Positions 28,055 through 29,538 of a stretch of 64,000 nucleotides of DNA are shown here, piece by piece (position 1 is the first letter of the stretch; every line of letters starts with the position of its first letter). The position numbers and the translations under genes were made by a program. The notes beneath the pieces were generated by a model. The model ran no database searches. It saw only the letters and a program-made list of their open reading frames with translations, and had not been told where the DNA came from. The stretch comes from Thiobacillus denitrificans ATCC 25259 (lineage in GTDB: Bacteria; Pseudomonadota; Gammaproteobacteria; Burkholderiales; Thiobacillaceae), in NCBI RefSeq assembly GCF_000012745.1, contig NC_007404.1, positions 744,001 to 808,000 of the forward strand, given 5' to 3'.

Positions 28055-28360
28055 TGGCGGAAGGTGTGGGATTCGAACCCACGAACGCCTTGCGACGTTG
28101 CCGGTTTTCCTTACTCCTATGGCTTTCGCCACCAGCCCGGCGGGCTGTTTGAGAGTCTGGACTTTGCCTTCGCCTTAGCCGTTCGGCCTTAGGCGGGAGC
28201 CGTCAAGTCTCTACACGTTCATGGTGTCGACCACGCTTCGCTCGGCGTTGCCTCGGGTTTCCAGGGGGTCCGCCGACTTTGACTCCTTACATCTGCTGCG
28301 TTTCCACAGCAGCGCTCGATCGAACAAGACCGGTGCATTCAACCGCTCTGCCAACCTTCC
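28055..28360 (-). tRNA. tRNA-Ser(UGA), interrupted by a group I intron
   Basis: Minus strand. The 5' exon (28360-28326) starts GGAAGGTTGGCAGAGCGG and ends in GGTCTT; the 3' exon (28109-28055) starts GAAAACCGGC and ends CACCTTCCGCCA. Joined, they give a 90-nt tRNA with a 7-bp acceptor stem GGAAGGT/ACCTTCC, an anticodon stem CCGGT/ACCGG with loop CTTGAAA (anticodon TGA), a long variable arm typical of tRNA-Ser, a T loop TTCGAAT, and encoded CCA. The break falls between U34 and G35 of the anticodon. Confidence 0.95.
28110..28325 (-). ncRNA. Group I intron (IC3-like), 216 nt, in tRNA-Ser anticodon
   Basis: The intron begins directly after U34 and ends in G (omega-G), as group I introns do. A P2 hairpin lies at 28312-28293 (CTGCTG/CAGCAG), followed by a guide GAG able to pair with exon CUU with the terminal U-G wobble. 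The core block GTGTAGAGACTTGACGGC (28217-28200) and AAGGCAAAGTCCAGAC (28170-28155) are the P3/P7 and J8/7-P7 strands, and P9 has an AGCCC/GGGCT stem and a GGCGAAAGCC GAAA tetraloop. Same order and much the same sequence as the 205-nt Azoarcus tRNA-Ile intron as I remember it. No homing endonuclease ORF. Confidence 0.93.
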
Positions 28361-28371
28361 GTGGGCGGGGA

Positions 28372-29538
<1,167 letters not shown>

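Follow-up and report, generated by a model that had tools for sequence, protein, structure and literature searches.

How could a tRNA able to read the serine codon UCA arise from a gene that is interrupted within its own anticodon? This question is raised by a locus in the 64,000-nt stretch of Thiobacillus denitrificans ATCC 25259 analyzed here (the window). With introns allowed, ARAGORN reports a tRNA-Ser(UGA) at 28055-28360 on the minus strand, 90 nt long when mature, with a 216-nt intron after tRNA base 35 (U34), i.e., between U34 and G35 and thus within the anticodon. The arms of this tRNA pair and its CCA is encoded. The same host, intron length and insertion point had been proposed in an earlier sequence-only reading, and the program places the edges identically; the edge rules invoked there can also be seen directly, with the 5' exon ending in ...CUU and the intron in a terminal G. 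The split gene went unseen in the default tRNA scan of the window. The only default call in the window, a tRNA-Gln(CUG) at 28593-28670 on the plus strand, sits inside the open reading frame of a sigma-54-type regulator on the opposite strand and is probably spurious. A consensus scan upstream of the tRNA-Ser(UGA) gene did not find a full promoter. The features of the locus are collected in Table 1.

We regard it as highly probable that this sole tRNA-Ser(UGA) gene is split by a group I intron of the IC3 type that is spliced out to give the mature tRNA, and that the Ser introns, as one clade, go back to a single change of host from within the Leu(UAA)/Arg introns. Once the precursor is transcribed, its guide UCGAG would hold the bases of the anticodon loop, pairing with CUU in P1 and with GA in P10. 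Cleavage after U34 by a guanosine bound in P7 would follow, and the freed 3'-OH of U34 would attack after the terminal G, joining U34 to G35 and releasing mature tRNA-Ser(UGA).

Table 1. Features of the split tRNA-Ser(UGA) locus in window coordinates, in order of transcription
Feature	Position	Strand	Basis
TATAAT, probable -10 box 10 nt before tRNA-Ser(UGA)	28371..28376	-	sequence
5' exon of tRNA-Ser(UGA), positions 1-34, end C32-U33-U34	28326..28360	-	ARAGORN with introns
216-nt group I intron, IC3 type, without own ORF; last base 28110 is the terminal G	28110..28325	-	ARAGORN, core helices
Guide 5'-UCGAG-3': GAG (IGS, P1) against C32U33U34 with U.G at the splice site; UC (P10) against G35A36	28315..28319	-	sequence; host-guide covariation
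P2 hairpin, 8 bp, GAAA loop	28293..28312	-	6/8 pairs changed on both sides
P3 5' strand GGAGUC	28281..28286	-	pairs with 28201-28196 GGCUCC; covaries across hosts
P4-P5 domain UCGGCG...CGCCGA	28242..28276	-	hand-written structure, covariation
P7 5' strand GACUU, guanosine-binding helix	28205..28209	-	pairs with 28164-28160 AAGUC
P3 3' strand GGCUCC	28196..28201	-	covariation
P8, CCUAAG...UAAGG motif resembling the 11-nt tetraloop receptor	28171..28195	-	sequence
P7 3' strand AAGUC	28160..28164	-	hand-written structure, covariation
P9 domain, GAAA-capped hairpin	28113..28156	-	hand-written structure, covariation
3' exon of tRNA-Ser(UGA), start G35-A36, CCA encoded	28055..28109	-	ARAGORN with introns

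Writing out the structure by hand places the core elements in the order P3, P4-P6, P7, P3', P8, P7', with the P3/P7 pseudoknot, and adds P6/P6a and a P1 of 3 bp ending in U.G. The P3-P7-P8 strand order recognized in the earlier reading is thus present. The minimum-energy fold of the intron is more stable than that of dinucleotide shuffles (z -2.8), and such a fold cannot represent the P3/P7 pseudoknot. A compact core, the absence of P5abc, the tRNA host and the similarity to the Azoarcus and Leu introns all place the intron in subgroup IC3. This assignment, also made from the letters alone, agrees with the tree described below and with the finding that a covariance model built from Leu, Thr and Ser introns detects Azoarcus-like Ile introns as well.

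Covariance models offer a more formal comparison. The general group I model RF00028 does not match the present intron in the window or in the genome, not even at E=5, and the check suggested by the earlier reading formally failed for this copy. The same model did detect a Ser(UGA) orthologue (L122) across its full length, at 36.7 bits and E=5e-6, a score below the gathering score. It finds two Leu introns at E=8e-5 (L038) and 8e-4 (L039), and Azoarcus-like Ile introns at 49.1 bits, with the cut-off at 50 (L075), and at 64 bits (L077). The sensitivity of RF00028 for such introns is weak, and a published survey likewise obtained no significant RF00028 matches where subtype models succeeded (PMC6125680). 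We built our own model from five introns with Leu, Thr and Ser hosts. It gives the present intron 209.7 bits, but this intron is one of its seed sequences; the Azoarcus-like Ile intron L075 reaches 111 bits. With this model, homologues turned up in 63 of 399 order genomes, 71 of 369 class genomes and 41 of 398 genomes in the phylum sample. Nearly all fetched matches lie in tRNA anticodon loops, most commonly in Leu(UAA), followed by Ile(CAU), Arg(CCU), Arg(UCU), Leu(CAA), Thr(UGU), Asn(GUU) and Ser(UGA).

Introns in tRNA-Ser(UGA) at the identical position occur at 14 loci, representing about a dozen distinct introns. A pattern scan over one genome per species returned 18 contigs: nine intron-bearing Ser(UGA) genes, a contig piece (L130) cut in the 5' exon and too near the contig edge for ARAGORN, and eight chance matches without a tRNA, which were discarded. 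The named carriers are Achromobacter aloeverae, Allopusillimonas soli and Giesbergeria anulus. The others are metagenome-assembled genomes (MAGs) assigned to Burkholderiaceae, Propionivibrio, Sulfuritalea (two), Rhodocyclales (L130), Betaproteobacteria (L129) and Acidobacteriaceae (L124). The last may be a binning error, and its Ser reading was assigned by hand where ARAGORN had picked other edges. The genome survey adds Ser(UGA) introns in G219, G153, G261 and, from another order, G728; G219 and the Betaproteobacteria MAG share the same intron sequence. Three further loci called Ser(UGA) by ARAGORN (L099, L101, L203) were set aside, since with the 3' exon AATCCGTTGG they read as tRNA-Ile(CAU) whose edges had been wrongly placed.

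In an alignment of 12 Ser introns, 94.7% of the pair cells are standard, and this fraction drops to about 41% when partners are slid by one column. The alignment contains 65 double-change cells against 20.9 in shuffles, and 24 base pairs changed on both sides against 12.2. P3 and P7 are invariant inside the Ser set. Across hosts, P3 varies with compensation, and P7 displays a C-G/G-C switch, seen in a helix slice displaced by one column. The terminal intron G (G216) is invariant among the Ser introns, and all of them keep GAG against CUU. The recurrence of the same intron at the same site in about a dozen further genomes, together with covariation above that in shuffles, indicates that the intron is not a chance resemblance.

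The guide offers the best indirect sign of splicing. In introns inserted after U34, its core GAG (rarely GGG) lies opposite C32U33U34, and a U.G pair marks the cut. The dinucleotide 5' of the core is UC in 12/12 Ser, UU in 48/56 Leu(UAA), AG in 8/8 Arg(UCU) and AC in 1/1 Thr(UGU) introns, so that 69 of 77 introns carry there the reverse complement of host positions 35-36 when the Arg(UCU) guide is taken as the GAG before CC. Uniform automatic anchoring still yields 63 matches out of 77, and at most 45 were reached in 10,000 permutations of the host labels; these counts include related introns and are hence inflated, independent host switches being few. A fitting change of the guide accompanies no fewer than three host switches (Ser, Arg(UCU) and Thr). 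We read UCGAG as a P1 plus P10 element co-adapted to the host tRNA, with only two base pairs of P10 supported in the Ser introns. A guide rewritten to fit its host argues for function.

Several other anticodon-loop introns came to light in the survey. Introns of tRNA-Leu(CAA) cut after C34 (L050, L068, L069, L153, L228) would have C-G rather than U.G at their 5' splice site; in the tree they are nested, perhaps repeatedly, among the Leu(UAA) introns. Group I introns of tRNA-Thr(UGU) (L037 in G013 of the same genus, L096, L098, L177) occupy two positions, after U34 and after U36, and those of tRNA-Arg(UCU) lie after U34 (L178, L179, L205, L207-L210, L215), in some cases with a long hairpin preceding the guide. 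Further introns reside in tRNA-Asn(GUU) and in another tRNA, possibly Lys(UUU) or Thr (L105, L106, L176, L206). Group I matches separated by only a few hundred nt, possibly tandem or nested introns, occur in pairs at L107, L217, L220, L221, G575:C13 and G713:C481; at L107 both fall in one tRNA-Leu with a 455-nt insert. In one genome (G219), introns interrupt four tRNAs: Ser(UGA), Leu(CAA), Leu(UAA) and probably Ile(CAU) (L046, L069, L071, L108).

Whether the cell depends on splicing hinges on the other serine tRNAs. The genome, a single 2.9-Mb contig, encodes Ser(CGA), Ser(GCU), Ser(GGA) and the split Ser(UGA), and the genome-wide tRNA inventory contains no second Ser(UGA) copy. The earlier reading had named an intact second copy as a finding that would speak against it. 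The mature tRNA-Ser(UGA), used as a genome query, matches only its own two halves and, at 76%, the Ser(CGA) gene. An intact second copy was likewise not seen in G153, G261 and G728. Under the standard decoding rules, no isoacceptor other than UGA reads UCA. Since the split gene is the only one for this isoacceptor, reading of UCA should require removal of the intron, which supports the dependence on splicing claimed earlier.

Two other identities for the insert have to be weighed against this. The tRNA gene might be dead and the intron decayed, its core a mere relic, with UCA read by another tRNA. The present copy does carry private changes, T49 to G before P4 and A56 to G between P4 and P5, at positions otherwise nearly invariant among the Ser introns, and these could weaken it; it also escapes RF00028, and UCA is rare in three neighboring genes (2 of 48 serine codons). 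However, UCA codons do occur in a genome that lacks another Ser(UGA) gene, the exons make up a full tRNA with its CCA, and in this very copy P3 and P7 are intact while P2, P4 and P6 are fully paired. We therefore judge a decayed intron very improbable. Even less credence, close to none, is given to a protein-spliced intron of the bulge-helix-bulge type. It would share the anticodon-loop site with many archaeal and eukaryotic tRNA introns, as is generally known and as described in PMC4033280. Yet the insert lies at 34/35 rather than at the canonical 37/38, and it combines 216 nt of length, a terminal G and U.G at the splice site with a group I core whose P3 covaries. The completeness of this core led us to set the class aside. 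Endonucleases that splice bulge-helix-bulge introns are not known in these bacteria.

With a self-splicing group I intron as the strongly preferred identity, its history can be considered separately. The Ser introns form one clade inside the Leu/Arg introns, with UFBoot support of 100 for 13 Ser introns and 91 when the Ser intron from another order is added, in trees built from a short alignment and rooted at the midpoint. This nesting bears out the kinship with the Leu(UAA) intron family suggested earlier. We infer that the host switch would have run from Leu to Ser. The C32U33U34 common to Leu(UAA) and Ser(UGA) would have made it an easy one. The jump to a similar target proposed from the letters alone gains support from the shared GAG guide facing this sequence, and can be refined in that the guide dinucleotide opposite the 3' exon was altered along with the host. 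The P10 dinucleotide would have changed from UU to UC after the switch. For the present copy, vertical inheritance from the ancestor of the order, followed by loss in nearly all relatives, would account for a Ser clade that spans several families and at least one further order. This scenario concerns the history alone and leaves the identity of the intron untouched; we consider it unlikely. The present genome is the only one of 56 in its genus with a Ser(UGA) intron, the Thr(UGU) intron of its congener G013 being placed elsewhere in the tree. Its tRNA body is 91-92% identical to those of four intron-bearing Ser tRNAs and 90% to a fifth, against 81-83% to the intact tRNAs of the genus. The acceptor stem GGAAGGT is found in all aligned intron-bearing Ser tRNAs but one (L155), and also in an intronless tRNA outside the genus (L010). 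A downstream radical-SAM gene is common to the present locus and thirteen sister loci, which makes the tRNA-Ser(UGA) locus orthologous among them. Hence, tRNA and intron probably arrived together by recombination at the resident tRNA-Ser locus.

Sister genomes display a separate peculiarity at this gene. Just upstream of an intact tRNA-Ser(UGA), they carry 5' halves of the tRNA, single or in tandem, that stop after the anticodon stem and have a GC-rich insert of 72-77 nt between G35 and A36 (L015, L019 with two copies, L021, L022 and L030; also L027 and L028, masked or incomplete). The inserts match no Rfam family. We rejected these copies as relics of the intron, as they lack group I motifs and are interrupted at a different position.

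On a broader scale, we lean slightly toward viewing the anticodon-loop IC3 introns as a retargeting family. Their 5-nt guide, the reverse complement of tRNA positions 32-36, would be rewritten by point changes, allowing one ribozyme to move between the U34 isoacceptors of Leu, Ser, Thr and Arg. The Ser(UGA) clade would then reflect one jump, after which tRNA and intron would have spread through the proteobacteria as one unit, without the help of an endonuclease. For such changes of host, the agreement of the guide with the host isoacceptor provides a simple, testable rule.

Hosts named in the available parts of reviews and surveys are the tRNAs Leu(UAA), fMet, Ile(CAU) and Arg, along with some cyanobacterial ones (PMC3984707, PMC4033280, PMC8450103, PMC5733544), and the part of the tRNAscan-SE 2.0 paper seen lists fMet and Ile2, the latter in Acidovorax and Burkholderia (PMC8450103). 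We found no earlier report of a Ser(UGA) host in the open literature, including the accessible parts of these four sources (PMC3984707, PMC4033280, PMC8450103, PMC5733544); subscription papers or database entries could hold one. The intron class is well known, while tRNA-Ser(UGA) as a host and the guide-host rule appear new. The locus would extend the host range of bacterial self-splicing introns to a tRNA that is present in one copy and on which all reading of UCA should depend, and it illustrates that tRNA finders at default settings overlook such split genes.

Among known systems, the bacterial and plastid IC3 introns of tRNA-Leu(UAA) come closest. They share with the Ser intron the insertion between U34 and N35, the GAG guide against CUU, the size, the core and the GAAA loops, and are nested with the Ser introns in the trees. 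They differ in having UU before GAG, matching A35A36, where the Ser(UGA) intron has UC matching G35A36; with its different host and separate clade, the latter does not belong to the Leu(UAA) family itself. The introns of Arg(CCU), Arg(UCU), Ile(CAU) and fMet resemble it in their anticodon-loop insertion and short P1 ending in U.G, but reside in other isoacceptors, and those of CCU and CAU are cut after position 36. The Azoarcus pre-tRNA-Ile(CAU) intron, for which L075 served as proxy here, has the same compact IC3 core and a guide of the same 3-nt length, yet it differs in its host, its cut after U36 and its guide GUG. Its guide follows the pattern GNG against CNU, and a GAG variant has also been studied (PMC6274277). 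The Ser introns thus offer natural variants for IGS and P10 studies on the Azoarcus-type ribozyme.
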